This document shows positions 41,138 to 64,000 of a stretch of 64,000 nt of DNA, piece after piece. This DNA comes from Cymodocea nodosa. Taxonomy: Eukaryota; Streptophyta; Magnoliopsida; Alismatales; Cymodoceaceae. The notes below the pieces were generated by a model that worked only from the letters and a program-made list of their open reading frames with translations, did no database searches and had not been told where the DNA came from. Made by a program: the position numbers and the translations under genes. Every line of letters begins with the position of its first letter. Position 1 is the stretch's first letter. The stretch is taken from NCBI GenBank assembly GCA_036874045.1, contig CM072337.1, positions 25,518,001 through 25,582,000 of the forward strand. The letters are read 5' to 3'.

Positions 41138-41729
41138 TGCCCAAATCCACCGATCGAGGTCTTCCAGCTCAATAAAACGCTTAAATTAGTTTTTTAACTT
41201 AAACGGACAAGAATAAACTTCTTATTGTTATTATATGTTAATCAATTAATCAATAAGGACGAGAATTAAAATCTATCATGTAAATCATAAATTAATCAAT
41301 GAATATAATATATTATAGATTAAATATGCACATATAACAACGTTTCATATGGTAGTAATATGTCTTAAATTATTGTTACCATAAACATGCAGACGTACCC
41401 GCACAAAAATACAATCATTGATTCGAAAATGAATAAAATCATTGATATTTGTAGATAATCAGTACTTATTTGCATTGCTTAGGATATGGTAAAAGTCGAA
41501 GTACAATGTTCAACGAATAGAGGAACATGAGTTGTCACGATAACTATCCTTTTCATTTTTATATATAATCATTACCAAACTGAGAAAAATGTCTCACCGG
41601 TTATGCAGTCCGGCCACAGGATTATTTTGCAATAAATTGGCGTTTAAAAAATATTGAACAGTGCAAGGACGAAATCGAGTGAACGGTACTACTATTGTAG
41701 TATCGCTGCACAAATTTATATGTTTTTCC

Positions 41730-44700
41730 TTAGATCTCACCATCCCAAAGCTCCTCTGCACTTTTATATACACTATTTTCATGAACAAGAAAGTCGCCTC
41801 TGATAAACCTCGCCTGCAGAAAGTATAGCATGTTAGCAAGAATTTTAGATATTCAATATTTAAAATAAAAAAGAATGGAAAATTAAAAACGATGTTGCAT
41901 TATATCTTTAATTGAAAGAATTTTAGATATTTAAGATTTATAATAATAAGGAACGGAAAAATTACAAAAGATGTTCACAAACAGAAAATTTTTCAAAAGT
42001 ATTATGTGATATAAAAAAGAATATATAGATCAAAATACTTGCAAGTCTTGCTTGAGTTCAAAGGCAACAATTGATAAACAACAATTACCTGCTCAATCTC
42101 AGAGAACTTGGCAAACAAATCATCAGGTATGGACCAGCCGAAGATATCACAATTTTCTTTTATCCTTGCTTCGGTCACACTTTTGGGAAGTACACTGTGG
42201 CCCATCTGAAGTCCCCAACGAAGGGCAACTTGTGCAGGAGTCTTGCCTAATTTCTCGGCAACAGAAGTCACAACAGGGTTTGCAAGAATGCCAAGAAGGT
42301 TACCTTTCAGCCATGCAGTACCTGGTGAACCAAGTGGCGAATATCCCTGAGGAAATCCAGATGAAAGAAGTAAACAAAACAGAAAAAAGGCCATTCTAAA
42401 TCCTATGTAACAGATAATATTGTGTTGACTGTGAATTATCATCTTACAGAAAGGTGAACTCCCTTGGCCAGACAGTAAGTATGAAGCTTAGGCTGCTGCC
42501 AGACAGGATGACATTCCACCTGGTTGACAGCAGGAGGTATACGAGCCATAGCTAACAGGTCGTCTAGTTTCTTGGTAGAAAAATTACTGACACCAATCGC
42601 GCGTGCTTTACCAGATTCATACAGTTTCTCCATGGCACTCCATGTGCCAGCCATATCAAGTGGAACACCATTTTCAGGCTTCATGCTAGTTCCCTTCTTT
42701 AATTGGAAAGGCCAATGGATCTTCAAAAAAATTAAATACAGCTTTAAAAAAGTCACCAATTCATACCTGTCCTAGATTTAAACAAAAAGCATTTCCATGG
42801 TGTAGCCAAAACTCAAAAGGTTCCAAGGCCAGGAGTATATGTAATTTAGGCCACAAAACAGTAGTCCACTACCCCAGTAAACAGCAAGCCAAAAGTCAAT
42901 GAACTAAGTTTTACAAAATAGGACTAAAAGAATCCATATTGGCAGAAGGATGAGATTCAAACATGTAAGACAATAGGATGACTCTCGTCAAAGAGCATTG
43001 CCAAAAAGAGGAAAAGTAGCCATTTAAATGCTGTTTAAAACATTTTTCATCAAAATCCATTTTGTTTTTGGAAAAATGGCCATTTCTCTGTTTGAACAAT
43101 CATTTTTTTCTTTTTCAGGACATTAAATGACCTTTTCAATTTCTTAACTTTCATCTTTTAAGTTCTTTTCATTGATATAATTTCACTATTTTGATTCTTA
43201 TTAAAGATATAATTTCATAATTTTATTTCATCTTTTAATTGTACTTTTTGATATTTATGCTTTTCAATTTAAATGACAATTGCAGCAAAAAAATATGTTC
43301 TTGAATTTTTATTGCATGTAAATGAATTATAATTTATTTTATTCAATTATTTTCATTGTGATGCTTGTATATTTGTAAATATATTTATATTTATTCTTTT
43401 TTGCAGCATTTTTCTATTTAAGAAATGTTTTGATTTCATTTCATATAATTTCTGTTTTCCACTTTTCTATAATACTACTGAAAGCATCATTTAAGAACAA
43501 TGCCTCAGAAGACCGTTAAATGTCAGATCAGGCATAACTGCATAGCCCGTCTTTAAATATTCTCCTTTATAGATAGAGATGGTTACCATTTCTAATCCAA
43601 CTAAACATCCAGGACAGAATTAATCATGGTTGGGACCAAGAGATAAAATAACGTCCAACATTAGAATATTATTGGAAAACATGTTGGGAAAGCCGTACCA
43701 GGTAAAGGTCTAAATAGTCAAGCCCTAGATCCTTCAGGGTTAAATCAAATGCCACCGGAACATCTTCTGGTGCAAGATCAGTACACCTGAATCAAAATCT
43801 TGATAAGGTTATGTTCTAGAAAAGAAAATAAAGAAAAATGTAATGAGAAAACACTGTTAGAAGAATTCTTCTCCACACAAAAAAGAGAGCACCTACCAGA
43901 GTTTGGATGTGATAAACAAATCTTCCCGTTTTACAATACCATCTTCAAATAGTTTCTTCAGAGCAAAACCAACCTAAAAGAGCTAATGATAAGAAAGCAC
44001 ATTCGTACAATAATAACACAGAATTTTATGTCATTAAAGTGCCAAACTAAGATATGCATATGAGGCTCAAAATGGTAAATGAAATAATAAAATACAATAT
44101 TTATTATTCTAGATAATTTACATCAATAAAAATGAAGATAATGCCACAAAATGTTGAGATGCATCATGATAGAAAAGAAATAATGAATCAATGGTTTTCA
44201 TATAATATGAAATAGGGTCCAACAAAGGTAAGGTTTTTCTATCTTGACCAACAGGTTATAAGTTCAAATTCTAAGAAACGGTCTCTCCATTTATGAAGTA
44301 CAATTAGCCCATCCTCATACCTCACATTATTAGGAACCTTGTGTACTAGATTTTCTCTTTATAAAATAGGGACCACAATATTGTATTGAAGAAATAATGC
44401 ATTCAATGCCAAATTGCAAAAGAAGTATACATCAAACGTTGTGTACTTGTAGTTATAAATTTAAAACTTAAATTTTTGAATAAGAGTTATATTTGCAAAT
44501 GTGATTTCCAACTGATATCTCATGGTTTTGTGCATCATGTGGAATCCAAAAGAAGTATAGTCATTTATTTTACATGCCACAGAGTGTAGAGCAAAAGACA
44601 AACACTCAACCTATGAGAGGAAATTGACACTACCAATCATAAAAATGTTTATATGCATTACTTTTTCAGGCTGTGCATGTGAAAATTTGCTGGACACCAT

Positions 44701-47047
44701 AAGCAAAAATCTAAGTGTAAAGTTGAAAGCAGAGGCAGAATTATGTGTGATACCTATCAAACTACATGTGATCATTTAAATTATTAATCAGAAGAAAAAA
44801 AATTAGAAACGGATGTTATACCCTTTGCTCAGAGAAAGCTAGGACAAAACATTTTCAAATGCTCATGTAGAAATTAGATAGAGATGGGAGCATCTGTTCC
44901 ATTATAACATATAGGGTTTGTTTGGTAATGATATTTTAACCTGGTGTATGAAAATAAACTGGAATTCTTAAAGAAGTTGTAGAATTCAATTTTTTCCATT
45001 CAACATTTTTAGTTCAATTACAATTTTTTAAACTGATGCAAAAAAATAAACTAATATATAAATAATACATATGACAATGATTATTGGAAAATGCCAACAT
45101 ATTTCATAACTAATATAATCATTATCAAACAACCCCACAGTTTAAATAACAAGGATACGGATATTGAAACATATCAACAGAACAACAAGTTTCAATTCCT
45201 ACAACATTTTAATAATTAACACAAACAAAAATTGTCTAGATACCAAATTTAGAAAATGCAGCACAGCAGAAATGTAGATATTCCCTTTCAATGAGAAATT
45301 TGCATATTCCATAATTGTCTAAAACATATTTTCAAAATACAAGAATAATCCAAGCCATAATCCCATCACATGGGATCAACCACATAAATCCCTTTTTGCC
45401 ATATATTTCTATCCATGGTCAAATCTTTGATTAAATTACATAAATTTAAATCATTTTTCACAATTCCTAACCAAGTAGTTTAAGTCTTCCTCTAATTTTG
45501 CTAATTTCTTCTACACTAATTAATTCTTCTCTCATTATTAGGATATCATTTGGCCTCCTCGAGATATGACCAAATCACTTGCATCAATTTCCTCTTATTT
45601 TATTTTCAATTGATATGACTTCTATTCTATTCATAATAAAGTCATTTTTTAGTTTACCCCTTATAATATTACTACTTATCCATCTCTGCAACACCAACTC
45701 TTTGCAAATGATCATTTTTATGGCCCAACCTATTTTTAAAATATCATAGAGAAATTTGACACTAAAATTACCTCTTTCTCATTTGCGTAAATTCGTGCAC
45801 AGTCAATATGCCTATATCCCACCTGCATAACAAACATTACGAGAGCTATAATGATTTGAATCGTTCATGGAATCAAAGCAAAGGGCCAGACTAAGCATAG
45901 TGTGGAAGAGCATTCATCAATCAGAAACCACTTCATAACTAAATATGTTCAAAAAAAAAGCTATCCTTACTTTGAACTAACTTTTCGATATAACATATCT
46001 TACTTCGAGAGCATTCAGTTAGAATCAGTTCATCGATATAATGTAAGAATGTTGAATATTAGCTAAAAAATGATTCCAAATTCTGCCTATAGGATTCGTG
46101 TTTAGGAATCTGTTAAAAAAGGCATTCCTGCTTATTGATAGGGACAGAACAATATTCTTGTATTTCCTTTTTTGATGTTTATATTACTTCTGTAAAAGGA
46201 GCAAATTAAGCTAAATAATTCTAATCATCTTGTATCGGTAGTTATGACATCACCCAAAACAAGCAGTTGTTATTTACCAACAATATTTTTGCAAAAATGT
46301 AATTCATCTAAGAGAATTTTATCAAAAGTAATATTAATTACTTTTATTCTAAAACAAAAGATCATCAATAGTATCTTACCATATTTAAGCCAAGAGGATC
46401 AGATTGACATTCGGTCTAAAAATTCCGCATGTACCCAATAAATTTAAAGATTAAGGGCAAAAAGGAAAAGATGAACATCGAAAAGAGAAAAATGGTAATT
46501 TGAAAGAAAGGAGGAAGAAGGGAGAAGGAAATAGTGAGACAAGGGCGTAGAAGAGAGAAAGCGTGGAAGAAGGGAAAGAATCAGAAATTTGAAATTTGAA
46601 AGAATACATGAAGGATTATATATGTTGTTTATATGGAATATTTCTTATGCATTTAGATTGTGTAATCTACTAGAATAAGAGCTTTGGGGTCATCATTTAT
46701 TCATCTGGAAATACAATGGTTTATTAAAAAGAACGGACTCCAAACACTCAATTCTTTTTAATTAGCACTCATTTCTAGCCATCGTGCAGCAATTCTTTAT
46801 ATTCCCCCGTTATTTCTGATTCCTGATCACTCATCATCCTCTCAGTAAAGACGTTTCATTACTAAAAAAATAACACAGGAAGAACTAGATCGGTAGAAAA
46901 AGAGTGTAAGAAGAAGCATGAGGAGGAAGAGGTCACCTTGACGGCAGCAACTACGGCATCAGCGATGTTACTCGGCTTGGACTGCCAAGTACCGAACCCT
47001 AGCGAGGGCATCTTTGCTCCGGTGTTGAGCGTGAAGTACTCCGCCAT
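41730..47047 (-). CDS. Aldo-keto reductase, AKR4C subfamily, copy 1 (complete)
   Basis: Seven phase-compatible exons: 46937-47047, 45772-45822, 43897-43973, 43699-43786, 42448-42720, 42089-42346 and 41730-41813, giving 313 residues, the usual AKR4C length. The start '[20 protein letters not shown]' and end 'EELWDGEI' are family hallmarks. The catalytic tetrad is intact: D44 ('YRHID'), Y49 ('ARIYANEKE'), K78 ('ITSKLW') and H111 ('LIHWPF'). NADPH-binding signatures '[12 protein letters not shown]', '[10 protein letters not shown]', 'GYSPLGSPG' and 'HSVLPKS...RIKEN' are present. AKR4C enzymes use NADPH to reduce reactive aldehydes, methylglyoxal, sugars and steroids, and are often stress-induced. 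Intron 1 (1.1 kb) and intron 2 (1.8 kb) are long; intron 2 carries a SINE and a MITE. Exons 3-6 are nearly identical to the second copy at 60-62 kb. Confidence 0.96.
42075..44165. repeat. High-identity block shared with 60122-62222 (left member)
   Basis: Exons 3-6 of the AKR gene with their introns are about 98-99% identical to the second copy. Differences are scattered substitutions plus a few small indels, for example a 14-bp insertion in the other copy near 61319. Identity falls sharply on both sides: exon 7 (41730-41813) is about 77% identical between copies, and intron 2 beyond 44.49 kb about 88%. The pattern points to gene conversion. Confidence 0.85.
44212..44361 (+). mobile_element. 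Old Au-type SINE in AKR intron 2
   Basis: A tRNA-like head has an A-box-like 'aaaggtaaggtttttctatc' and B-box-like 'agttcaaattc', followed by 'aagaaacggtctctccattt'. The tail 'ctcacattattaggaacctt' then 'gtgtactag' and a T-rich end corresponds to the Au SINE body ('cctcgcatagcgggagcctt' then 'gtgcaccgg'). It is diverged by roughly a fifth. The second AKR copy does not have it at the corresponding place. Confidence 0.65.
44914..45136. mobile_element. MITE, family 2 copy A (223 bp)
   Basis: The left end 'gggtttgtttggtaatgat' and the reverse complement of the right end 'ggggttgtttgataatgat' form ~20-bp terminal inverted repeats. It lies in AKR intron 2, and the same insertion is present in the second AKR copy (63450-63661), so it predates the duplication. 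Confidence 0.7.
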
Positions 47048-47103
47048 TTCTACTTCGAAAGTCGCTTCACTGGCCTGGCAAAGAAAGCGTTACGACCTGC
47101 CAC

Positions 47104-47147
47104 CACATTTTATAGTGGTAGGGTTAAGAGAGCACGGCTGACGTGGC
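47104..47147 (-). promoter_or_regulatory. AKR4C copy 1 promoter: TATA box and ACGT element
   Basis: On the minus strand a TATA box (CTATAAAA, 47115 to 47108) lies about 60 bp upstream of the ATG. About 25-30 bp further upstream is 'gccacgtcagc' (47137-47147), an ACGT-core bZIP-type site of the kind linked to ABA and stress response. The regulation is inferred from motif identity only. Confidence 0.5.
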
Positions 47148-47483
47148 TTTTGCGCGTATTCACATGACACTGCGGCAGACTGGTAGGCCGTGGAAAGTAT
47201 CGATTATTTAACTTATGATTTTGAAAAAAAACTTATTTCTGTTTCCATGTATTAGCTTAAAAAATGTTTAAATTTACATTAAACAAGTTAAACACAAAAA
47301 AAGGTGGGATCATACAATTTTTAAACATCAAATTATTTTGTATATATTGTATTAAAATAATATTTATTAAACATAATTGTCGTAATTGAGGTAATGTTTT
47401 TTTTAAAAAAAAACTTCAAATAAACAACAATGATGCACTAAATTTATGCAAAATCCACGGGATATTAAACCTAAAATTTTAAG

Positions 47484-47680
47484 TTCCATTTGATAATAAT
47501 TATTTTCTGGTGCTTTTGCAATGAGGATGTAGAAGTCATGTATTTTTTATATTCAACAATTTTAATTCAAACTATACAGATTTTTAAGTTAATGCATAAA
47601 CAATTTTTTTAGTAACAATTATTAAAAAAAGTTAATGTGTTTTTCTATGTTGGATGAAATAATCATTATCAAATACTCCC
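47484..47680. mobile_element. MITE, family 2 copy B
   Basis: The left 'ttccatttgataataattat' and right 'aataatcattatcaaatact' match the terminal repeats of the copies in AKR intron 2. The interior 'attcaacaattttaattcaa' matches their 'attcaacatttttagttcaa'. Confidence 0.6.
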
Positions 47681-48727
47681 ATAAAATCAAATAATCAATT
47701 TTTTTCTTAATTTTAATATTTTAGTTAAGATTTTAGCAAGATTATTTATATCCATTATATTAATATTAATTAATAATATTCAGAAATAAATTATTTTTAT
47801 TTACAATTATAATGATTGTAATAATAAACAATAATAATTGTTATTACAAAGAATATTTTATTATTTATTATAACTGAAATGCCATAATGTTAATAATATT
47901 AGTGTGATTAATATGGTATAATTAACATTAAATAAAAGAAATCTTATGACTAAATCTAGAAAACTCACCATTAGAAAAAAGGATATGGCTATGTATCTGT
48001 ATAGGTATTATAATTTTATATTTTTAATAATTTTTTTTTTTTTGTGCTGTTCAAGATTCTTGAATGAGATTGTAAGTACCATCATCCTTAATCTGCTTAG
48101 TTATTGTGTTTGGTTATTATCGTAATTTCACATGCATACTATTGAAATTGAATCTCATAGATATTAATAAATTCTTATTTATCTATTATATTAAGCAAAT
48201 ACCCCATCAAACTAACCCCTTCTTTTTGTGAACTTCTAGATGTCTCTTTGCTAATTAAATATTGAATTCCTCTTCAATCCCCAATTCAAACATAATAATT
48301 AAACTCCGGTAACAGCCTAAACTACATGAATATGAAATCTAAAATATGTGTAAAAAAATCTAAAATTATCAAAATAATCAAATCCAATTCCAAGATAACA
48401 GGCAGTTGTGTCCAAGTTGACGTCTACCACATTACCAAGAAATTAATTCCATGCCAAACCAAAAACAATGTTGATTTTCTTTTATCTTTGTGGGAGGAGC
48501 CGGGGAGGTGACGAATGACGGGGAGAGTCATCATGAGAAGGTTATGAAATAAAAAATCGAGTACTCTACAGAAGTCCTTTAATTTTTCAAATTAGGTTAG
48601 TCAAAAGGTAAAAGTACGAGTGCAAGCATCTTAGCTACCGCTGAAATTTCTCATGGAATAAAAATAAAAGAATACTTGGAGTCCTTCGAATGAAACTCAC
48701 GATTTGAAGTTAAATAAGCAAGTGAAG
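47681..48727. other. AT-rich intergenic DNA
   Basis: No gene or element is recognised. It contains poly(T) and AT-rich runs. Confidence 0.4.
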
Positions 48728-49313
48728 TGAGGGAATGTTTATACGTTCATAAAATAATAAAAATGGTAGAAAAATTTTCATTATTTTTTAGGTATTTGTA
48801 TATTAAATGAGGTTCATCATTTTTCTTTAATATATATAAGAAAAAATTTCTTTCATTTTTCGACATTCTAATATCTAAAATTGATAAAAAAGAAAAAAAA
48901 GAAAATATAAATTATCATAAAATATATTAATAACATATAATTTTGATATAAAAATTATTTATATCATTAGTAAATAAGAATTGATATTATGAGAGATACG
49001 TGTAACAATAAAGATGTATAAAATATATTTTATGTTGTAACTATTATTATAAATAACTTTATCTTATATTATCTATAATAAATTTTGTTATTTTCTATCT
49101 TATAGATAAATATAAAGAATATTTAATTTATTAATTTTAATATTTTTATTTTGTAAATAAACAATATATTTTACATTCTATCATTTTTTATTCTATGTAT
49201 AAATAACTTGATTTTTCATTAATTTTTTTATTTTCCTCATTTTTCTTTTCTTCATTTTCTATAATATTTCGTTATTTTCTTTTCATTATTTTTCAATACA
49301 CAAATACTTCTTG
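48728..49313. mobile_element. Non-autonomous Harbinger-type deletion derivative 1
   Basis: Ends 'ggaatgtttatacgttcata' and, in reverse complement, 'aagtatttgtgtattgaaaa' are imperfect inverted repeats. The subterminal 'taatgaaaagaaaat'-like repeats and interior ('ttctttcatttttcgacatt', 'aatatattttatgttgtaac') match the copy at 50.2 kb and parts of the larger elements at 55.7-58.2 kb. There is no coding capacity. Confidence 0.5.
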
Positions 49314-50212
49314 ATATGATTCTCATCCAATGATAACAACAATAATTTAAATCATAATCTTACTACACAAAGTTAATTATGTAAATATTTTATTTATTAT
49401 CGATTCTTTGCTTATATCATATAAATTTAAATTATTCAAACATCTTCCTTCCAAGAATCCAAGGGTGTGAAGGTTTTGGATAGTAAAATAAAGAAGCAGC
49501 CGATATGGAAAAGTGAAAGGGGCAAAGTTAAGGAAAGAATAATAAAATAGTACTTATTTTATTAAAAAAAAAACTACCTATTACATTTTTTTCCAAAAAT
49601 CACGTGGACCCACGTGACTTCGCTCTTGCACGTGATTATAAATTAATCTTATGCATGCTTGAGAAGTTATCATGTAATAGCGATAACTAATCAACTTTAA
49701 TTTCCATGAGTTATTATTGCCAATTTTCATCGAGATTTAAATATAGTGACAACATCTTATTTCTGATTTTCCAAAAGAAAACTATTGATGAAATTATTTG
49801 TAATGGAATTTTAAACGTATATATTATTGCCAATTTTCCAAAAGAAAACTATAGACGGAATTATTTGGGGTGAAATTTTACAACTATCAGGTTGAAAATT
49901 CTATGCGCATGACTATTAAAATTCCAAAACTTGAAAATTACATTTGGAGCCCTCTCATTATCATTAAAAAAAAAATTTGACATTTGGATCCTGTTTGATC
50001 TGAACCGGCAATTAGAGTATACATGGGGGGCTGCTCGTGAATCTCCACTTGTCACGCACATGCATGATTCCTGGGAAATTATCTGTAATTTGAGCATTAA
50101 TTATGCCACATTTAAAGAATGGTACGTGAACAGGCTTTTTTTTCCTTTTCAAATTTATATAAAGAATGGTAAACAATGGTAGAAGGAAATAACAAAGATT
50201 TTCTATCTTTTT

Positions 50213-50890
50213 TAGGTGTTTATGTACTTAAAAAATAGTGAAAAATACTGAAAAAAAAATAGTGAAATTTTTTTTATCATTTTCTGAATATTTGAGCATT
50301 AAATGAGTTTTTGAACGATTATGCTATTTCCTTTCAATATATAAGAAAAAATTTTCTTTCATTTTTCAACATTCTGATATCTAAAATTGATGAAAAATAA
50401 AAAAATAGAAAAGTGAATTATAATAGAATATATTAGTACTATGTAATTTTAATATAGAAATTATTTATATTCCTAATAGATGAGAATTAATAGTACAAGA
50501 GATATGTAAAATATATTTTATATTATAACTATTATTACAAATGACTCTATCTTATATTATCTATAATAACTTTTATTATTGAATTTTGAATTTCATGGTT
50601 TATTAATAACTTTTATTAATAACTCTTATAGACAAATACAAAAAATATTTAATTTATCAATTTCAACATTTTTTATTTTGTAAATAAATATATATTTTTT
50701 ACATTTTATCATTTTTTATAATTTTTTGTTCTATGCACAAATACATGTATTTCAAATTCTATCATCTTCTATTCTATATACAAATAACTTGATTTTCTAC
50801 TAACTTTTTGTTACTTCCTATCATTTTCTTTTTTATCACTTTTTATGATATTTTGTTATTTTCTTTATATCATTTTTCATGATAATCAAT
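50213..50890. mobile_element. Non-autonomous Harbinger-type deletion derivative 2
   Basis: It begins 'aggtgtttatgtacttaaaa'. The interior 'ttctttcatttttcaacatt', 'aatatattttatattataac' and 'actctatcttatattatcta' is collinear with the copy at 48.7 kb. The right end is approximate. Confidence 0.5.
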
Positions 50891-52429
50891 CTATTCACTA
50901 TTGTAACCCACGAGATAATACTGATATCGACATTTGATAAGGAAAATGTCAAATAATTGAACACTAAATATGGATTGTAAGTCATTTAAGAATAAATTTA
51001 TAATCTCTTACTCCATTGAGATATTACAAAAAGGTCAAAATAGAAGGAGCTGATCATTTCTCTTGTTCTTTGCTACATCGCCTTAATGGGGGGACTATAG
51101 TTGAAAAGTTAATTGTTTTATATTACAATGAAATTTTTAGCATTCTAAGCTTTCCACTTAAACTAAACATCTTTCACCAATTCAACCCTCAAGCCAGTGA
51201 CAAGGTTTTTGAACAAAAAAATAGTTAAGTTGACTATATTTTCAAATATTGAGATAATATTCTTATTGGAATGGTTGGAAATAATATTATTAAGATCATT
51301 TCAAATAATCTAAATGAAAGATAACAAGAAAGAGTATCAAATTGAATAATTTTGAGGAAAGAATGTATTTACATTAAATTAATATTTATGCACATTGAAA
51401 ATGACAAAAGGGAATGATAGAAAATTTTCTAACATTTTAAAAGATTTTTCACCTTGAAAACAATGGAAGGAAAAATGATAAAAAAAATTTTAAGATATTT
51501 ATGCACCATTTGCATATATCAATATTTTCCCTCTTTTTGCTTTTAATATAAAAGAAACGTGTATTTACATTTTTCATCTCTCATTAAAAAAGTACAACAT
51601 TCCCCCTTTTGTGTCTCGACTTATCCAAACACTAAGAGAGGGTTTATATATGTGGAATTGGATAGAAATGAAGATAATTTTCATCCAATTCTAGTAGGTT
51701 AACGTTTGCGCATTCAAGGAAAATTATTTTCCAATGGAATTTCATTCTCGTCTCTTTGTAAAGTCTTAAAATTCATTTTCACAATTCATCACTTCAAAAA
51801 GTCATTTGTGATCTATAAAGATCTAATTATAACATCATATGGGTTGTTGATTGATTAATGTAGTTAATTAATTATATTTTAACTAATTACTTTAATTCAT
51901 TAATTAATAAATTAATTATAAAAAATTATATTACATTATTATCTTAAACAAATATAAATTTTAATTCTATCATATATACAAATATCTGAAATTTAATTTT
52001 TAACAAATTCTTAAATATATACAAATACTTGAATTTTAAAATTTATTTTTATTAAAATCTATAAAATTTAAATTCTATTAAATTAAATTTCAAATACACA
52101 AATATACCCTAAACTTCTATCATTGTTTACGTTGAAGACTCGTCTTCTTCGTCATCCATTGAACACTTAAAATCTTCGTCGTTTGCAGTGAATACTCGCC
52201 TGGTTAAACTCTCGTCGTCGTCATTATTAAACCTTTGTCTCATCGTCTGTATCAAACTCTCTATTGTCGCGTCATCCCATCAAACCCTTGTCTTGTCATC
52301 TTGGTGCCACTCTTCTCTCCCCTCTCGTTCGATCACTCTTTATTGCAATATGTTTTGATGATTTTATGAAAAAGTACAGATAGATGATCTGGATTTTTCA
52401 TTTAAGTTTAACAAATTGTATTTTGCTTT
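50891..52429. other. AT-rich DNA with unassigned repeats
   Basis: 51.63-52.11 kb begins with 'gggtttatatatgtggaatt' and ends near 'aaatacacaaatatacccta', which hints at another TIR element but is not secure. A short CGT/TCT-rich patch at 52.13-52.33 kb is GC-richer. No gene is recognised. Confidence 0.35.
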
Positions 52430-53110
52430 GCGTCTTCATTTCCTGATCATCTTCCCGTTTAATTTGTCTATATTTGTTTCTAGATAAAAGGCAGGTCTTC
52501 GATTTCTTCTAGGCTTGGTTGGTATTAGCATAAATTTCATCTGAACTAGGTTCTTCTATATTAATACCATCGTATGTTTGATCCTTATGGTTTAGATTTT
52601 CATCATAATTTAATTCTTCAAAACATTTTGAAGATCAACTAGATTACTTTCTTCGACACTAATAAGAAACGTATCATCATAATCAGTCAAATTTTGATTA
52701 TGAACGATTGAACCTTAGGTTCACCATTCTTAAATGGGTTTAGATTTTTATAAAATTTTGCATCTCTACTTACTAAGAATTCTTTGATATCCAAATCAAA
52801 GAGTCTATATGCTTTTCATCCGATCAGATACTCCCAAAAAAAAAACATCTTATAGCCCTTAGGCTAAATTTATTTTAAAGGATTAAGTTTTGTTGCATGG
52901 CATAAGCACTCAAAGAACAAAAATGGGAATCCCATTGATTAGACATGTTGCTGTGAGAACACAGCAACCCCAAAAACTTAAAATCTTAAGGCTCCAGTTA
53001 TTTGAATAATGTGTTGGTGCTTTCTTTCAACCATCTCATTTTACGGTAGAGTATAAAAACATGTACGTTAGACACTTAACTAACAGGTGCATGTACCTTG
53101 TGTCTTCCAA
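52430..53110 (-). mobile_element. Ty1/Copia-type retroelement fossil (pol fragment)
   Basis: Read on the minus strand, short matches occur in the usual Copia order: an integrase end ('MVERKHQHI'), the 'LTATCLINGIP' segment, and a post-integrase 'FDLDIKEFLVSRDAKFY' block followed by an acidic linker. Only this middle part of pol is recognisable. It carries many breaks. Neither LTR was identified, so it is an old internal fragment. Confidence 0.65.
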
Positions 53111-53829
53111 GCATTTTAGAAAATGGTGCAACTAAGAGAAGCCAGCAACAGCAACAATCATAATAAATTTACAGTGATTGATTTATTGCAACACCTGAAT
53201 TTATTGTGGTGGGTGCTGAGCTTATCACGCTTGTACGACACACTTTGTTTAGTGATGAGTAAACAACATTTTAGCATCTGCTTCAATGATGTAGATCTTC
53301 AACATTTTAGCACATTTTGTGCAGATCTAAATACTCTTTTTAGTTGCAGTCACAGTTTAGAATAGAACATAATGTTACTAATATGACTGTTTCTTGTTGG
53401 TCCAAAAAAAAAACAATATGGCAAGGAGTGGGAAACATTCAAGGTCCAGTTACAAATTGATTGAGCTGTGTCGTGTAGACCAACTCAATGCAATGTTTTA
53501 CCTGACGTGAACCTGCGGTCCGGTGTTTTGAGTTTCTCCTCTTCTCCAACGTCATTTCTCCTCTTCTTAATTTTGTACATGTACCTCCATAAAATAACAA
53601 TGTTATTTACTTACTTTTTCTTGTATCTCTCTCATTAACCATTTTTGTAAATTCATGTTGATAGTATGTGGGAAGTTATTTGTATTATTCATACTATTTA
53701 TTACGATAAAAATTGTATAACAGAGATTTATTCATCATGGGCATGTACATGTACTTCAAGATTTATTCATTTGATTTAAGCATCTTATATATGTCATGTT
53801 AGTTTGACTATGATTTTTTATATCAAAAG

Positions 53830-56750
53830 GAAAAATACATTGGTAGACAATGACAAAGATCAATATTAACAATGGAAAAAGGTTCCAACCAAAAAATTTT
53901 TTACATAAAGTCAAAAAGATGATGAACTCATATCACATGGAGTCAAAAAGATGGTAAGCTCATATTGAGTCTCCTTTGTAATGCTATATAATTCAAGGAA
54001 ATGCTAACACACCTGACGACAAGATTAAGATGAACACAAAATATGGTGATCAATGACTATAATGATAAAACAAATACTAGTCTAGAAAAGTAAAATGTTG
54101 ATAGTCACCTAAAGATGTGATAACACATGTATAAAAATTATAAAAAGATTGATTAAAATAGTTGAGGATGAAACCATGTAAATGGTCATATGAGTATCTT
54201 CAATGAAATCTAGGAAAAATTTGTGAATGTGAGATTAATTATTGTGAAAGATATATATGAATCTCTTATCTTGCATGTATCTAATACTTATTATATATTT
54301 TTCTTTTTGTAGAGTGATCCTAAATATAGTACCTTGAAAGGAAAGCATTGTTCAACATATGATGAAGTTGCTTAAGGAGGAATAAGCATTTTACCTATGG
54401 ATTTTCATGAGAGTGACAATTTAAATTTAAATGATGATATATCTCCTTTAGATAACTTCAATAATATTATTTGTCCAATATCATCTAGCAATGACATACA
54501 AATGTGAGCACCACTTTCACTCTAAAGATTCTAAGAAGGGAAAGTGACTTGTCCTCATGTAGAATCTTCTAAAAGGATGATAACAAATGAAAATAGACAT
54601 GAAAGAATTTTTATAAAAATATAATGAATGTAATAAAAGTAGAATATAGATCATAAAGTGTGTTACCAAAGCTAAAGAAGAAATAAATGAACTCTTAAGA
54701 ATACAATGTAATCAATTATACATTATTCCTTTATTATTTGAATTTCATGATCTAGATAAATACAATGAATATAATGCAATGACATTGTTAGAAAATCATT
54801 AGAAACAAAGATTGTTTTTAGGTCTATTGAAAGAGATGAGACTAAATTAACTAAAAGACAATCTCTCTTAAATATTATGGAGGATGTATTAGACTTTGCT
54901 ATTCGCTTATTATTTTTATGTTATAGATTGTCTTTTTTGTTGTTGATGTGATATACTAGACTTTGTTATTCCTTTTTGCCTAATTTTATTGTAGTACATT
55001 TTGTTGTTTTTATGTCTTCTATATTTACTTGTTTGTTCTCCATTTACTTACTATTTTTTGTAAGTGTTTTTTGACTAATACAAATGGATCTAAATGAAAG
55101 ATTTAAGAACTTGAAAGAGCTTATAGAAGAAGAGGCAAAACAAGAATAACTACTCATGTGCATGATAAAAGCATAGATATTTATGTCTACATTGACAAGT
55201 GATATAAGTATTGTTGTAAGAAGTACTTCAAGAATATATAGTAAAGAATGTTAACAATATATAACTATGTTATTATATCCAACTTTATCCAATTAAATAT
55301 ACAATTGTAGGAAAATTTACTAAATGAGTCAATATATTTTCATTTTTATAATTTCTTGAGAAGTGAAGGAGTCATGCAAGATATTATAATATGAATGTAG
55401 AAGAAACACTTGGAATATTTTTAGTTATTATTAGACAAAATTAGAGATATAGTATAACTATTGAGCACTTTCATCAATTTGGTTAGATAATTAATATTTA
55501 CTTTAATGAAATCTTGAATGTAATATTAAAAGTAGGATATAAACTTCTAGCTAAGTAATAATCATCAACTTCATCTAAGATTCGAAATGGTCATTATATT
55601 TATCTTTACTTCAAGGTGAGAGAATTTAATTCATTAATATGTTTTTAAATTAAGAAATAGATCATTATACATGTCTTTTTCCTTCTAAGATTGCATTGAA
55701 GTAGTTGATACTCATGTGAAAGCTATAATATATGGTAAAGAAAATGTACATTACAAGAATAGAAAAGGTAAATCATCATAAAATATAATAGTAATATATA
55801 ATTTCAATATAGAAATTATTTGTCTTTAATAGATAAGAATAATCAACAACTAATACTCGTATTCTTTAAGATACAATTTCTTAACATAAAATCTTCAAGG
55901 TTCTATCAAGTTTATTAATATTAGTAATACTTGAAAATACTCATCAATAGTAGAAATTGTTGAATTAATTTTTGCAGCATGATACTAATAAAATTTTTAT
56001 AAATTATAGGTAAATATTACTTAATAGATGTAGTTATTCAAATAAACCAAAATTTATTATTTCTTTTTATGGTGTAAGATATCACTTTAACGACTATAAT
56101 GGTAATAAACTCTAATGAATGCATTAAAAAATTTCAATTACAGATATTCATAATTAAAAATAGTGATTAAATGGACATTTGAAATAATCAAGCATCATTT
56201 TTAAATTTTTTAATATTATATATCATTTCCTTTTGAAATACAAGGAAAGATTATCTTAATATGTTTTTTAGTTCATAATTTTATTTTAAAGTGAATAAAT
56301 CAATTTTACTTTAAAATCTTTAAGATGAATTACAAAAAATGATAATTAATGATATTGGACAAGTTCTTTCAAAAGAAAAAGTATATATTGTTGCTAGACC
56401 AAGTCAATAATATAGGAAAGAAATTGTTGATAAAATGTGTGATAATATTATAAGATCTATATGAAAGAATAAAGATATGTGATTTTAATTTGTGTTGTAA
56501 CTAATACAAAGTATGATATATTTTTATATTGTTAATTTCTTATTTTCTATCATATAAATAAATACAAAAAATTCAAACTTATCATTTTATATTCTACACA
56601 AACACATATATTTTAAAATTTGTCATTTTTTGTTTTATGTATAAATACTAGGAAAATGACATATTTTCTATTATTGTTTTTAATTTTTCATTTCTATCAT
56701 TTTGCATAATTTTCTTTTTGACTTTTTCTAGATGCACAAACATCCTTTAG
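53830..56750 (+). mobile_element. Decayed PIF/Harbinger DNA transposon
   Basis: Near 53.88-53.93 kb 'NGKRFQPKNF' and near 54.31 kb 'SDPKYSTLKGKHCSTYDEVA' match the Myb/SANT-like ORF1 of plant Harbinger elements ('..HP.....R.KPFP.YDEL'). Near 55.39-55.61 kb 'MNVEETLGIFLVIIRQN', 'RYSITIEHFHQFG' and 'NEILNVILKVGYKLL' match the N-terminal part of the Harbinger transposase (helix-turn-helix region), followed by a 'KIRNG..IYLYFK' stretch. Near 56.34-56.46 kb a C-terminal-like 'RKEIVDKMCDNI' is seen. Stops and frameshifts are frequent. The right end reads, in reverse complement, 'aggatgtttgtgcatctaga'. The left end was not found. Confidence 0.65.
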
Positions 56751-56802
56751 AAAAAAAAAAACTAAGAAAATAAAATGATCATCTAGCATACGTCTACCGT
56801 TA

Positions 56803-56898
56803 CTCAATAATGAAGTCTAAAAGTCACAAATTTCAATACAATTGAAAAGGCTCAATAATGAAGTCTAAAAGTCACAAATTTCAATACAATTGAAAAGG
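56803..56898. repeat. Perfect 48-bp tandem duplication
   Basis: Units 56803-56850 and 56851-56898 are identical, each starting 'ctcaataatgaagtctaaaa' and ending 'aattgaaaagg'. The perfect identity in otherwise decayed DNA means it is recent. Confidence 0.95.
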
Positions 56899-57326
56899 AG
56901 ACTCTGATTATTCTTCAAACAAAGATTACATATTGAACAAGTAGAGCTACCCTTTCTTGCTGAATTTTCTTTAGTAGGTAATTTACTATAAATATAAAGT
57001 TAAGCTACAATTTTAGCTTTTAAGGAAGACTTAGACATCCAAATCTGATAATATAACTTGAACCTTAGATCGCCATCCATTAGCAGTTTATAGCAAGAAT
57101 TAACTGAAAAAACACTAGCAAGAGAAGCAATCCGATAAACAGAGTCTTTGTCGGGCAACAAGGAGTTTGAATTTAAGATGTCCGATAATTTGGAAGTACG
57201 CATAGACAAGTTAGTGAAGAGTAAACTTTTTAATTCATTTTTAAAGCCGATGGAGGTAGCTACTCTCGCAATACTAATTTTTGAGTTCTTAGGAGCACTG
57301 GACAATAAACATAATAATGTCTTCAA
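56870..57326 (-). mobile_element. LINE fragment with zf-RVT region
   Basis: A 108-codon open frame (57326 to 57000) contains 'FSVNSCYKLLMDGDLRFKLY' then 'QIWMSKSSLKAKI', and after a break 'KLPTKENSARKG' and 'CSICNLCLKNNQSLLFNC'. This is the zinc-binding region found at the C-terminus of plant non-LTR reverse transcriptases ('..W..K.P.K...F.W....KL.T.DNL..RG....C..C'). Only this small piece is present, on the minus strand, between two Harbinger remnants. Confidence 0.7.
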
Positions 57327-58190
57327 GATTCCATCATGTTTGTTACTACTAATAATACTTAAAAATACTTGTCAATAATGGAAATTGCTGAATTAAATTT
57401 TATAACATGATACTAATAACCTTTTATAAATTATAAATAATCATGACTTAGTAAATGTTCGTTATCTAAATAGACTAAAATTTATTACTCCTTTTGTATA
57501 GCATAACAAATCACTTAGATGACTATAATACTACTAGACTTCCAATGAATGTAATAAAAAATTTTAATTATAGATATTTACAATTAAGAACAATGATTGA
57601 ACATATATTTAAAATGATCAAGCAATATTTTTCAATTTTACAAAGTTATATATCATTTCCCTTTGAAATATAAGAAAAGATTATCTTAGCATGTTTTTTA
57701 GTTCATCATTTTATTTGTAAAGTAGATAAATTAGATTTACTTAAAGAATAAAGACATTCAAAATGAATTATAAAAAATAACAATTGATGATGTTGAACAA
57801 GTTATTTTAGAAGACGAAATATCTATTGTTGCTAAACCAAGTCAAAAATATAAGAAAGAAATTCTTGATAAAATGTGTGATAATATTTTGAGATCTATGT
57901 GAGAGAATAGAGATATATGATGTATAATTTGTGTTGTAATTATTACAAAATATGGTATATTTTTGTGTTGTTACTTTATTATTTTCTATCATGTAAACAA
58001 ACACAAAAAAAATTAAAATTATCATTTTCTATTATTTTATATTCTATGCATAAACATACATATTTTGAATTTCATCATTTTCTATTTTATACACAAATTC
58101 TAAGAAAATAACATATTTTCTATCATTGTATATTATTTTCTATCACTTTTACAATTTTTTTTGAACTTTTGTAGAAGCATAAACACCCCC
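57327..58190 (+). mobile_element. Second Harbinger remnant (3' part only)
   Basis: About 860 bp is collinear with 55885-56750 at roughly 80% identity, including 'gataaaatgtgtgataatat' and the right end 'agaagcataaacaccccc'. It lacks the transposase core. It starts exactly where the LINE fragment ends, so LINE insertion or a deletion junction separates it from its 5' half. Confidence 0.65.
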
Positions 58191-59876
58191 CTAAATTAAA
58201 AAACTATATTAAGAAAAGACGAAATCAATTTTCCTTTTAAGGACCATAGAGAAGAATACCTAGTCTTCCAAATTTTTTGAACCTATATATTATTTTCCAA
58301 TTTACTAATGCAAATTTAGATTTGCCATCAATGGAGGTACAGTAGAAATTTTTTTATAGTTTATTTATGCTTTTTTCACCTAAATAGGAAAATAAAGAGC
58401 AATTAGGCCATGATTTGGGATGAAACGTCAAGCCTAAGGATGTTACTAGTCATGATTTGAATTTCATTCCATGAATTTCAAACCTTCAAAATAAATGACA
58501 TTTTATGTAATATCATAAAAGTCTTTGTGTATTTGAGGTAAAATATGATTTACATTTCATTTAGGGTAAAGATTATAATTTAAACTAATATTTGATATAA
58601 TTTAACCTAAAATAAGTAATATCGTATGTAACATTACATAACTTAATAAGTCAAATTAATAAATAAGCATAATATATTATAGATTAATATGTAGACATTC
58701 ATATTTGTGTCTGCTCAAAAATGGATGCAAAAACAGCTATGATCATAGATACCCATGTATAACAAGTATTGCTTGCTCTCTCGATGATCATGGTACAAGA
58801 TCAAAGAAGACATGAACCCATTGTCGTTTTGAATCATTTTAATAGAAAGAAACCTGGATTTTTATAATACATAATCATTACCAAACGATATCCTACAAGT
58901 TCTTTCCCTCGGGGATCCATAACTCACTTATCTAATTCGTAACATTTATACTACGAAAACTCTTGTCATGCACGTGGGCGTATACGAAAAACATACACAT
59001 TCATTCACACTATTATAAAAGAAGGGAAACCATCACAGGTAACGTAAAAGATAGAGAAAAAAGTTTGGGCAAGAGGTTCAATGTAAAACCTATTTTGCCT
59101 TTAAATGTTTTAGATGGGAACATGCAACCAATTTCTCAAAAATAATAAAAAAAATCGTCTGACCCTAAAATTTTATCTTAAAATTAATTAATTAATATTT
59201 AAAAAAATCATCATTCAGTTAAAACCTTACATTTATCGATGCAAACATTTTTAATACTACACTTATCTTATTTATGTCTACAAATATTTATAAATAAATA
59301 TATATAAACCAACTTTGATTCCATAAAAAATTTGATCTCAAAAGTAATTAGTAATGAATAGAAAATTTCATTATATATAACACTTAGTATCGATGTAAAA
59401 CTTTTCTAACACTAACCATAAATTAAAATGATGCATCCCCGATTTAAAGTCCATAGCATGGTAATCCCGATGAAAGCATGCATTCCAAATATCAAAATGA
59501 TAACATGTTTCTTTCCGACAAATCGAAGAAAAATTCAAGCACCCGAAAACAAATTTTACGTCAGATGCCTACACCTGATGTAGACGTAAGCACTTTCAAT
59601 TTTACAAATGTATACATTGTCAAAAATATAACCGTCTATAACGACAAATGCATTGCATAATTTTCACTTAAATTAAATTAATAATGAAATTGAACATTCT
59701 TACGTAAAATTCAACTATTAAAACATAGATGAAAACTTAATAAATAAATTACGTTGGATCATGATATAACTTGACAGGTTGATTTAGTAAAACATCAGCA
59801 TTTAAAAAGTATTGCACAGTGCATAGACCATATCGAGCGAACTATACTACTGCAAAGCACACAGGTATGTTTTTCC
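58191..59876. other. Intergenic DNA, partly the 3' flank of AKR copy 2
   Basis: From about 58.66 kb on, short similarity to the 3' flank of copy 1 appears ('ataatatattatagattaa', also near 41.30 kb, and 'ataatcattaccaaac', also at 41.57 kb), so the duplicated unit extends beyond the coding region. No separate gene is recognised. Confidence 0.45.
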
Positions 59877-62800
59877 TTAGATTTCGCCATCCCAAACCTC
59901 CTCCACACATTTATACACACCATTTTCATGAGCAAGAAAATCAGCGCGAAGAATTCTCGTCTGCAGAATACATGGTCAGTTAGCAGAAATAATAATCTCA
60001 GGAAATCACAAAATAGCTGTAGATGTCTTAGATTGAACCAATTTTATTTGAGTAATATAATATTATTTTATTTTGAATAATATACTAATTGAAAGTTCTG
60101 TTTCAAATTCAAATATAGCATTTGATAAACCACAATTACCTGCTCAATCTCAGAGAACTTGGTAAACAAATCGTCAGGTATGGACCAGCCGAAGATATCA
60201 CAATTTTCTTTTATCCTTGCTTCAGTCACACTTTTGGGAAGTACACTGTGGCCCATCTGAAGTCCCCAACGAAGGGCAACTTGTGCAGGAGTCTTGCCTA
60301 ATTTCTCGGCAACAGAAGTCACAACAGGGTTTGCAAGAATGCCAAGACGGTTACCTTTCAGCCATGCAGTACCTGGTGAACCAAGTGGCGAATATCCCTG
60401 AGGAAATCCAGATGAAAGAAGTAAACAAAATAGAAAAAAGGCCATTCTAAATCCTATATAACAGATAATATTGTGTTGACTGTGAATTATCATCTTACAG
60501 AAAGGTGGACTCCCTTGGCCAGACAGTAAGTATGAAGCTTAGGCTGCTGCCAGACAGGATGACATTCCACCTGGTTGACAGCAGGAGGTATACGAGCCAT
60601 AGCCAACAGGTCGTCTAGTTTCTTGGTAGAAAAATTACTGACACCAATCGCGCGTGCTTTACCAGATTCATACAGTTTCTCCATGGCACTCCATGTGCCA
60701 GCCATATCAAGTGGAACACCATTTTCAGGCTTCATGCTAGTTCCCTTCTTTAATTGGAAAGGCCAATGGATCTTCAAAAAAATTAAATACAGCTTTAAAA
60801 AAATCACCAATTCATACCTGTCCTAGATTTAAACAAAAAGCATTTCCATGGTGTAGCCAAAACTCAAAAGGTTCCAAGGCCAGGAGTATATGTAATTTAG
60901 GCCACAAAACAGTAGTCCACTACCCCAGTAAACAGCAAGCCAAAAGTCAATGAACTAAGTTTTACAAAATAGGACTAAAAGAATCCATATTGGCAGAAGG
61001 ATGAGATTCAAACATGTAAGACAATAGGATGACTCTCGTCAAAGAGCATTGCCAAAAAGAAGAGGAAAAGTAGCCATTTAAATGCTGTTTAAAACATTTT
61101 TCATCAAAATCCATTTTGTTTTTGGAAAAATGGCCATTTCTCTGTTTGAACAATCATTTTTTTCTTTTTCAGGACATTAAATGACCTTTTCAATTTCTTA
61201 ACTTTCATCTTTTAAGTTCTTTCCATTGATATAATTTCACTATTTTGATTCTTATTAAAAATATAATTTTATTTCATCTTTTAACTGTACTTTTTGATAT
61301 TTATGCTTTTCAATTTAAGAATATATTCTTAAATGACAATTGCAGCAAAAAAATATGTTCTTGAATTTTTATTGCATTTAAATGAATTATAATTTATTTT
61401 ATTCAATTATTTTCATTGTGATGCTTGTATATTTGTAAATATATTTATATTTATTCTTTTTTGCAGCATTTTTCTATTTAAGAAATGTTTTGATTTCATT
61501 TCATATAATTTCTGTTTTCCACTTTTCTATAATACTACTGAAAGCATCATTTAAGAACAATGCCTCAGAAGACCGTTAAATGTCAGATCAGGCATAACTG
61601 CATAGCCCGTCTTTCAATATTCTCCTTCGTAGATAGAGATGGTTACCATTTCTAATCCAACTAAACATCCAGGACAGAATTAATCATGGTTGGGACCAAG
61701 AGATAAAATAACGTCCAATATTAGAATATTATTGGGAAACATGTTGGGAAAGCTGTACCAGGTAAAGGTCTAAATAGTCAAGCCCTAGATCCTTCAGGGT
61801 TAAATCAAATGCCACTGGAACATCTTCTGGTGCAAGATCAGTACACCTGAATCAAAATCTTGATAAAGTTATGTTCTAGAAAAGAAAATAAAGAAAAATG
61901 TAATGAGAAAACACTGTTAGAAGAATTCTTCTCCACACAAAAAAGAGAGCACCTACCAGAGTTTGGATGTGATAAACAAATCTTCCCGTTTTACAATACC
62001 ATCTTCAAATAGTTTCTTCAGAGCAAAACCAACCTAAAAGAGCATTAATGATAAGAGAGTACATCGTACAATAATAACACAGAATTTTATGTCATTAAAG
62101 TACCAAACTAAGATATGCATATGAGGCTCAAAATGGTAAATGAAATAGTAAAATACAATATTTATTATTCTAGATAATTTACACCAATAAAATTAAAGAT
62201 AATGCCACAAAATGTTGAGATGCATCGTCTACCATATATTAAAAAATAATTCCCGTAATTAGCATGTGATTTGATGTGCAACATCAAGGAAAGGGTAAAA
62301 GGAATGAATTTCTTGACAAAATCTACTGGGGTATAGCAAATTAGAAGCATTAAAAATTGTTTGGCTATTAGAATCATTTAAATAAAACATAAATTAAAAT
62401 TTCTTCCATAATTGAACACAAGCAAAATCTTATGACCACAGATTTTTGCCCGAGTATGAACCAACAAGTGACCTAATGAATAAGGTAGACTGATTAAACA
62501 CTGCTTTAGGCTTTTAGCTGCTCACAATATTGAAAGTTCGTCATTGATACACAATTACTAAAATTTGAATACATGGAAGAGTTGTATTTATTACAAATTA
62601 ACAAAACACGGACATCAGCTGACATACTCAAGAAATCAGGCCCCATCCCCAACCACTAAAAATCACAGGTTCGATCCCACAAATAGGTTTCAAACCTCCG
62701 ATGATGGGAAGCCCTATGCTGCTGATAGCTACTGGGCTACATCTTCAAAAAGAACAAACATGGAAAAAATCAACTAAGTATGCCTGAAACAACCCACATC

Positions 62801-64000
62801 AAAACAGGCACTCAACCGAAACATTGTTTTGTGAGACTGTTTTGGACTTGTAGCCATTTTTTCCCTTTTCTGGTAACAAGTATAGTTGGAGTGTAACCAA
62901 TCTAGAATAAGAAAAATAATTCATGATAAACACATGGAGAAAACATTTGCAATAATACTTTATAAACAATCTAGAATGATACTACAGGATTTGAATAATA
63001 CCCAAAGGTTGAAGGCCACCCTTCACAAAAACGGTTAAATACCACATATCATTTAAACTTTTGAGCGTAATTTTTGAAAATATGGTTTCCAATTGATATC
63101 TCATGGTTCCATGCATCGTGTGGAATCCAAGATAAGTATACCCATTTATTTTACATGCCAAGAGTGTAAAGCAGAAGACAAACACTCAACCTATGGGAGG
63201 AAATTGACACTATCAATCATAAAAATGTTTGTATGAATTACTTTTTCAGCCCATGCACGTAAAAAATTGTTGGACACCATAAGTAGAAATCTAAATGTAA
63301 GGCTAATTTAAATTATTAATCAGAAAAAAGAAAAGAAAAAGAAAACGATGTTATACCTTTTCCTCAGAGAAAGCAAGGAGAAAACATCTTCAAATGCTAA
63401 TGAAGAAATTAGATAGAGATGGGAGCATCTGGTCCAATTATAACATATAGGGTTTGTTTGGCAATGATATTTTAATCTGGTGCATAAAAATAAATTGGCA
63501 TTTTCAAAAAAGTTGTACAATTCAATTTTTTCCATTCATTGTTTTTAGTTCACTTATAATTTTTTAAATTGATGTATGAAATTAAAATGAGGTATGAATA
63601 ATATGTATGACAATGATTAATTTTCATACACTGACTAAAATAATCATTATCACACACCCCCATCATTTAAATAACAAGGATACAGATATTGAAACATGTC
63701 AAGAGAACAACAAATTCTGATTCCAACAACATTTTTAAATACAAGGTTAGCAGTTTATAGAAATTATCACAAACAGAAATTGTCCAGGTATCAAATTTAG
63801 AAAATGCAGTACAACTGAAATTTAGATATTTTCCCTTTTAAAGAGAAATTTGCATATTCCATAATTGTGTAAAACATATTTTCAAAATGCAACAATCCAA
63901 GTCATAATCTTACTACGTGGGATTGACTACATAAATCTTTTCTACCTTGTATTTCTATTTATGATCAAATCTTCAATTAAATTACATAAATTTAAATCTC
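59877..64000 (-). CDS. Aldo-keto reductase, AKR4C subfamily, copy 2 (exons 3-7; runs off window)
   Basis: Exons 61957-62033, 61759-61846, 60499-60771, 60140-60397 and 59877-59960 have the same lengths and phases as exons 3-7 of copy 1. Exons 1 and 2 would lie beyond base 64000, since intron 2 is still running. The visible part is intact: K ('ITSKLW') and H ('LIHWPF') of the tetrad, '[12 protein letters not shown]', 'GYSPLGSPG' and the end 'EEVWDGEI'. Changes from copy 1 in exons 3-6 are few (for example Leu to Arg in 'KGNRLGIL' and Ala to Thr in 'FTKFSEIEQ'). The last exon is strongly diverged: '[20 protein letters not shown]' against '[20 protein letters not shown]'. The C-terminal loop shapes the substrate pocket in AKRs, so specificity may differ. 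Confidence 0.92.
60122..62222. repeat. High-identity block shared with 42075-44165 (right member)
   Basis: This is the partner of the block in copy 1. It starts in intron 6 just downstream of exon 6 and stops in intron 2 at 'gttgagatgcatc', after which 62.23-63.05 kb is unrelated to copy 1. Homology resumes near 63.07 kb at lower identity. Confidence 0.85.
62230..63060. other. Copy-2-specific segment in AKR intron 2
   Basis: About 0.8 kb replaces the ~0.3 kb SINE-bearing segment of copy 1. It contains 'cacaggttcgatcccacaaa' near 62.67 kb, a B-box-like motif, so a tRNA-derived or other mobile element may be included. The class is not resolved. Confidence 0.4.
63450..63661. mobile_element. MITE, family 2 copy C (orthologous to copy A)
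   Basis: It begins 'gggtttgtttggcaatgata' and ends 'ataatcattatcacacaccc', with the same position and orientation relative to the AKR exons as 44914-45136. It is shared by descent from before the gene duplication. Confidence 0.65.

Follow-up and report, generated by a model that had tools for sequence, protein, structure and literature searches.

A survey of rice multigene families counted 377 conversions in 626 families, with a mean length of 130 nt and a range of 4–1237 nt (excerpts of PMC2277409). Among the duplicates that tetraploidisation left in poplar and willow, 5.73% and 2.66%, respectively, showed partial-gene conversion (excerpts of PMC9205023). Our literature searches found no report of gene conversion in the AKR4C family, which is no proof of its absence. 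Here we analysed a window of 64,000 nucleotides of Cymodocea nodosa (assembly GCA_036874045.1; positions 25,518,001–25,582,000 of contig CM072337.1, hereafter C5), with a G+C content of 32.4%. Two AKR4C-type genes that reach into this window, copy A and copy B, share a block of ~2.1 kb at ~98.6% identity between more diverged flanks. A recent exchange between the two paralogues, most simply gene conversion, is very probably the best reading of this block.

A high-identity block between diverged flanks

The sequence examined comprised the window, a further 20 kb along C5 and 40 kb around a paralogue on contig C6. Positions above 64000 are continued coordinates, counted along C5 past the window end. 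The C. nodosa genome used for searches contains 374.6 Mb in 28 contigs. The C6 gene was the only close paralogue found and serves as the outgroup to A and B.

Copies A and B lie on the minus strand in direct orientation, approximately 18 kb apart, and the block extends over the tract parts listed in Table 1. The preliminary description had placed two AKR4C paralogues at this distance with a ~2.1-kb block at 98–99% identity, and the measured value falls within that range. In a self-BLAST, the match of 42057–44165 with 60108–62226 was the longest repeat of the window apart from the trivial self-match (97.1% over 2128 gapped columns). The proposed identity plot in 100-column windows showed that divergence is non-uniform. 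Identity was 97–100% over 42109–44117, 77% in the windows straddling each block end and 67%–93% over 44518–46599. In a permutation test on 4318 aligned columns, with the stretches without homology left out, the score of the maximal low-divergence segment was matched in 0 of 2000 column permutations.

Between the two blocks, 28 of the 2068 aligned exon and intron positions carry substitutions (~1.4%), and there are indels of 3, 8, 14, 2 and 1 bp. The coding sequence differs at 7 of 696 sites inside the block and at 34 of 246 outside it (p=9e-15; counts for each exon are given in Table 1). The count of about 19 differences in the 84 nt of exon 7, made earlier by eye, proved exact. The introns inside the block differ at 21 of 1372 sites (Jukes–Cantor distance, JC, 0.0155 ± 0.0066), and introns 1 and 2 outside it at 293 of 2200 (JC 0.147 ± 0.017; 85–89% identity), which is an approximately tenfold lower divergence in the block (Fisher p=3.7e-41). 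The synonymous divergence (Ks, Nei–Gojobori) between A and B was 0.218 in exons 1–2 (7/37), 0.032 in exons 3–6 (5/159.7) and ~1.0 in exon 7 (9/16.2), as the suggested comparison by exon group was expected to reveal. The nonsynonymous divergence (Ka) was 0.004 in exons 3–6 and 0.173 in exon 7.

Strong purifying selection might also hold exons 3–6 alike, as these exons encode most of the protein and their Ka is low. However, the synonymous sites and introns 3, 4 and 5 (14 differences in 1181 sites) are about equally alike, and the same exons differ from the C6 paralogue at Ks 0.48–0.51. Because the drop affects introns and synonymous sites alike, purifying selection is not its cause. The intron and synonymous data refute this explanation, to which we assign practically no probability. 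The preliminary description had dismissed it on the ground that the introns of the block are as conserved as the exons, and the intron, JC and Ks values given above bear this out. The block is real in the assembly and recent, and selection on the protein is not its cause.

Homology between A and B continues on both sides of the block. On the exon-7 side, exon 7 and ~110 bp of the 3′ untranslated region (3′UTR) can be recognised as homologous, with 73% identity over 206 gapped columns. Towards the 5′ end, A and B remain homologous and collinear across introns 2 and 1, exons 2 and 1 and ~0.9 kb of 5′ flank; identity in that flank is 86% over 657 columns. The block is a replacement and not an insertion, because diverged collinear homology is present on both sides. 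The insertion of a copied segment, by Pack-type capture or as a retrocopy, was rejected: the introns are kept and both flanks are collinear.

Ends, direction and age of the proposed exchange

At the intron 2 end of the block, the similarity of the copies extends to A 44166/B 62226; it resumes near A 44483/B 63064 at the older level of divergence. The ~320 bp of A and ~840 bp of B in between show no detectable mutual similarity, so diverged intron 2 does not follow directly on the block. Farther on, intron 2 is indeed diverged, at 85.6% identity (ungapped, 1193 columns) instead of the ~88% estimated before. The best local score of A 44167–44500 against B was 22, reached by 399 of 500 shuffles; against the C6 paralogue it was 36, reached by 2 of 500. 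A 44171–44217 resembles the C6 paralogue near the collinear place. The intron 2 heterology of B showed no resemblance to the C6 paralogue (186 of 500 shuffles were as good) and matched one other genomic site, at 75% over 113 bp. That of A had several short dispersed matches, with a repeat fragment at 44203–44360.

At the border of exon 6 and intron 6, 43 bp (42057–42099, including 32 bp of intron) align between A and B at 86%. The rest of intron 6 is not alignable between the copies (best local score 25; 144 of 500 shuffles as good). Intron 6 of A showed no resemblance to the C6 paralogue (187 of 500 shuffles as good), and intron 6 of B a weak 20-bp match (13 of 500). Global alignment gave identities of 78–81% for intron 6, the 3′UTR and the distal 3′ flank; of these, the intron 6 and distal-flank alignments contain many gaps and were set aside. 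Intron 6 of A also carries a 60-bp AT-rich unit twice (41838–41896 and 41916–41975; 85%), within the bounding heterology. Both tract ends lie within ~50 bp of heterologies, one in intron 6 and one in part of intron 2, and the tract takes up nearly all of the homologous segment that these two enclose.

We propose that A and B are tandem paralogues that first diverged to ~0.15 substitutions per neutral site on the 5′ side. Ectopic (interlocus) recombination would then have replaced ~2.1 kb of one copy, spanning exons 3–6 and the associated introns, with the corresponding sequence of the other. The likely route would be a break in one copy, followed by strand invasion and synthesis on the other. 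Synthesis or branch migration may have halted where homology ended, in intron 6 and in the unrelated part of intron 2, and each copy would afterwards have gained its own substitutions. We infer conversion rather than two crossovers, a single event, and the repair pathway. A recent exchange between older duplicates had been suggested from the outset, and the collinear diverged flanks and the ~tenfold lower divergence in the block support it.

The differences between A and B were polarised with the C6 paralogue over 1826 three-way columns. Twelve of the 27 differences are private to A, 14 to B, and 1 is undecided. This balance matches equal evolution after the exchange and is silent on direction. 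Across the intron 2 junction A is C6-like and B is not, which leaves the direction undecided because either direction would stop at the heterology of B. Alternatively, repair with one non-homologous end in intron 2 of B would make B the recipient.

The tract is about one tenth as old as the 5′ side (0.0155/0.147). Substitution rates used for dating range from 2.5e-9 to 1.5e-8. The divergence divided by twice these rates (d/2r) gives 0.5–3.1 million years for the tract and 5–29 million years for the 5′ side, which are orders of magnitude only.

Unequal crossing over between misaligned A and B, whether by two crossovers or by duplication and subsequent deletion, would leave an identical end product and is allowed by the direct tandem orientation. 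It needs two events, one for each block end, without net change in copy number, and A and B alone were returned on C5. We regard this course as improbable, slightly more so than the chimeric assembly considered below.

Several points weigh against an exchange by conversion. The abrupt end at the intron 2 heterology also fits a non-homologous join. The tract portion of intron 2 shows higher divergence than the remaining introns of the tract (7/191 vs 14/1181, p=0.019, post hoc), and therefore more than one event is possible. No GC-bias signal was found in the polarised changes (AT>GC vs GC>AT was 6:5 in A and 7:7 in B), although changes after the exchange need not show such a bias. Finally, a divergence of ~1.4% is in the range possible between two alleles of an outcrossing plant. 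Judged from the assembled sequence alone, assembly or haplotype chimerism is a conceivable source, in which the block in one copy would be a misplaced allele of the other.

The genome searches bear on this last point. With the first half of the block (42075–43075) as the query, 15 matches were returned. Twelve of them were short (~45–80 bp); the others were A itself, B (99%) and one C6 gene (680 bp at 79%). The short matches (77–89%) come from a dispersed piece of intron 4 (~42997–43075), which points to a dispersed-repeat fragment within the tract. The protein of copy A gave 29 exon-level matches, covering all seven exons of A, six of seven in B, six of seven in one C6 gene, and more distant copies on contigs C4 and C2. 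The short exon 2 was missed in both B and the C6 gene, and the protein search added no further close gene. These two queries recovered the block in near-identical form only from A and B, and neither a third copy nor a separate alternative-haplotype contig was among the matches listed. Chimerism is also at odds with the substitutions and indels between the two blocks, which are not identical, and with C5 being a single 26.7-Mb record. It requires two joins just 2.1 kb apart, both in register. We consider chimerism unlikely and the exchange between the paralogues the better reading.

Divergence levels, gene models and encoded proteins

Three levels of divergence can be distinguished between A and B. 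In exon 7, A and B differ at 19 positions, compared with 21 and 24 differences to the C6 paralogue; in exons 1–2 they differ at 15 positions, compared with 29 and 25. The synonymous contrast between exon 7 and exons 1–2 gave p=0.010, and that between the 3′UTR (22/101) and the 5′-side introns p=0.025. Intron 6 and the distal 3′ flank are unalignable between the copies, whereas the 5′ flank aligns at 86% identity. These levels give a modest hint of an older, larger exchange.

We tentatively consider that these old paralogues exchanged sequence at least twice, at different times and over different extents, which would make the locus a layered mosaic; such repeated exchange may keep the core uniform while the substrate-binding rims drift apart. 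The A/B split would then date back as far as that from the C6 paralogue, with exon 7 and the 3′ flank as its only surviving traces. In an earlier exchange, the 5′ part, from intron 2 to ~0.9 kb upstream of the ATG, would have been reset to d ~0.15, and the recent exchange would have reset exons 3–6. We find this history somewhat doubtful. Bootstrapping the ratio of the A/B distance to the C6 distance gave P=0.09 that exon 7 is not older, and Ks between A and the C6 paralogue is itself uneven (0.87, 0.48 and 0.97 in exons 1–2, 3–6 and 7). Small samples or unequal rates may partly explain the three levels, and faster change at the 3′ end would explain them too.

The exon borders of A and B were set by eye and by comparison of the copies, without transcript support. 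Each copy has an open frame without internal stop, and the introns have GT–AG ends (AG/GT at all twelve intron borders checked per copy).

Table 1. Features of copies A and B. Positions are those of the window, continued along C5 above 64000; differences are between A and B.
Feature	Position	Strand	Remarks
Copy A	41730–47047	-	Seven exons, 313 aa
Copy A exon 7	41730–41813	-	C-terminal 27 aa and stop; outside tract
Copy A intron 6	41814–42081	-	Heterology, tract limit on exon-7 side
Copy A tract part	42082–44166	-	Exons 6, 5, 4, 3; introns 5, 4, 3; first few bases of intron 6; end of intron 2
Copy A exon 6	42089–42346	-	4/258 differences
Copy A exon 5	42448–42720	-	2/273 differences
Copy A exon 4	43699–43786	-	1/88 differences
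Copy A exon 3	43897–43973	-	0/77 differences
Copy A intron 2 heterology	44167–44482	-	Tract limit on exon-2 side
Copy A remaining intron 2	44483–45771	-	Diverged level; 172/1193 differences over 44490–45771
Copy A exon 2	45772–45822	-	5/51 differences
Copy A exon 1 with ATG	46937–47047	-	10/111 differences
Copy A 5′ flank	47232–47941	-	Homologous to 71629–72325 upstream of B; 94/657 differences
Copy B	59877 to past window end; exon 1 reaches 70614	-	Seven exons, 313 aa
Copy B exon 7	59877–59960	-	19/84 differences
Copy B intron 6 heterology	59961–60132	-	Mostly unalignable to A
Copy B tract part	60133–62226	-	Exons 6–3
Copy B exons 6, 5, 4, 3	60140–60397, 60499–60771, 61759–61846, 61957–62033	-	
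Copy B intron 2 heterology	62227–63063	-	~840 bp; unlike A, unlike C6 paralogue
Copy B intron 2, onward past window end	63064–64000	-	
Copy B exon 2	64331–64381	-	
Copy B exon 1	70504–70614	-	

Both proteins matched Pfam PF00248 over profile positions 2–289 of 291 (E 3.6e-53 for A, 2.3e-53 for B). NCBIfam, a prokaryote library, gave no family at cut-off for copy A. Residues 1–313 of copy A matched PDB 7w1x (E 1.7e-155) and residues 4–313 matched 3h7u (E 2.4e-152). The eight distinct PDB sequences at E <1e-90 are named AKR4-1, AKR4-2, AKR4C7 or plain ‘Aldo-keto reductase’ (3h7u, 6kbl, 3h7r). In excerpts of PMC8524200, 3h7u is given as AKR4C9. The alignments to 7w1x and 3h7u cover all or almost all of copy A, and the plant AKR4C enzymes (7w1x, AKR4-1; 3h7u; 5jh1/5jh2, AKR4C7) are its nearest solved relatives by similarity, not by family tree. 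The catalytic Asp-Tyr-Lys-His is named in excerpts of PMC8524200, and the putative residues Asp44, Tyr49, Lys78 and His111, placed by motif and not by superposition, are present in A, B and the C6 paralogue. A 3-residue insertion (~aa 217–220, exon 6) is common to A and B and is found neither in the C6 paralogue nor in the two displayed PDB relatives.

The two proteins differ at 17 residues. Exons 3–6, which encode 232 residues, account for only 2 of these differences; the other 15 are among the 81 residues encoded by exons 1, 2 and 7 (p=5e-8), at residues 24, 26–28, 38 and 50 and at nine places within 287–308. In codeinone reductase, loops A, B and C and the beta1-alpha1 and beta2-alpha2 loops shape substrate specificity (excerpts of PMC8524200). 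By an approximate residue offset, not a superposition, residues 24–28 would correspond to the beta1-alpha1 loop, and 287–308 largely to loop C. Loops A and B would lie approximately within the tract, and the regions of the beta1-alpha1 loop and loop C would not have been overwritten. Leu217Arg is an A/B change within the 3-residue insertion, in or near loop B. Ka/Ks was ~0.3 in exons 1–2, 0.13 in exons 3–6 and 0.17 in exon 7; there is no sign of positive selection, because the ratio is below 1 in every part. If the layered history is true, the two enzymes would share barrel core and loop A and, but for one substitution, loop B, with nearly all their differences located around the N-terminal substrate loop and the C-terminal loop C.

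Surrounding sequence and comparison with known systems

Intron 1 of B is ~5 kb longer than that of A, owing to additional sequence at 65116–70193. On either side of this sequence stands a 109-bp direct repeat (92.7%), made of intron sequence present once in A, and there is a second, inner direct-repeat pair of ~274 bp at 77%. Diverged repeats (71–82%) were found between the genes at 48756–49282, 50212–50867, 55755–55840, 56512–56745 and 58005–58098, each in inverted orientation to a copy that lies immediately upstream of B (70723–71330). Short pieces of them also match near the C6 paralogue. A direct repeat of ~0.88 kb at 79% is formed by 55886–56745 and 57314–58188. On the minus strand, just 3′ of copy A, 39641–41185 forms an intact frame (498 aa counted from the ATG). 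It begins ~0.6 kb away from the stop codon of that gene and was taken for a pentatricopeptide repeat (PPR) protein. A genome search with this frame for synteny on C6 showed no close second copy among the matches listed (best other match 33% amino acid identity).

The case of A and B is a good example of a well-known process and is ordinary in kind. It represents a clean, long, intron-spanning ectopic conversion in a small metabolic gene family, if the proposed exchange is correct. For tandem pairs of this kind, the gene tree and the Ks date depend on the exon chosen, with Ks of 0.03, 0.22 and ~1.0 in this one pair. The coincidence of the tract ends with heterologies is a testable statement on what stops plant conversion tracts. 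A and B differ mostly outside the converted core, largely near what may be two substrate-binding loops, which bears on the relation of core and specificity.

As far as excerpts of the reports describe them, the rice multigene families (PMC2277409) and Arabidopsis RPP8 (PMC6771003) likewise combine a high-identity tract with lower-identity flanks and retain both copies. The tract of A and B is longer than those of rice, at 2.1 kb with introns and 696 coding nt; the rice lengths come from aligned cDNAs and are not directly comparable. Its ending at heterologies is a difference from the rice and RPP8 cases, so far as excerpts of those reports go. In poplar and willow, just part of a gene was likewise homogenised according to excerpts of PMC9205023, although those pairs come from tetraploidisation, whereas A and B are tandem copies 18 kb apart.

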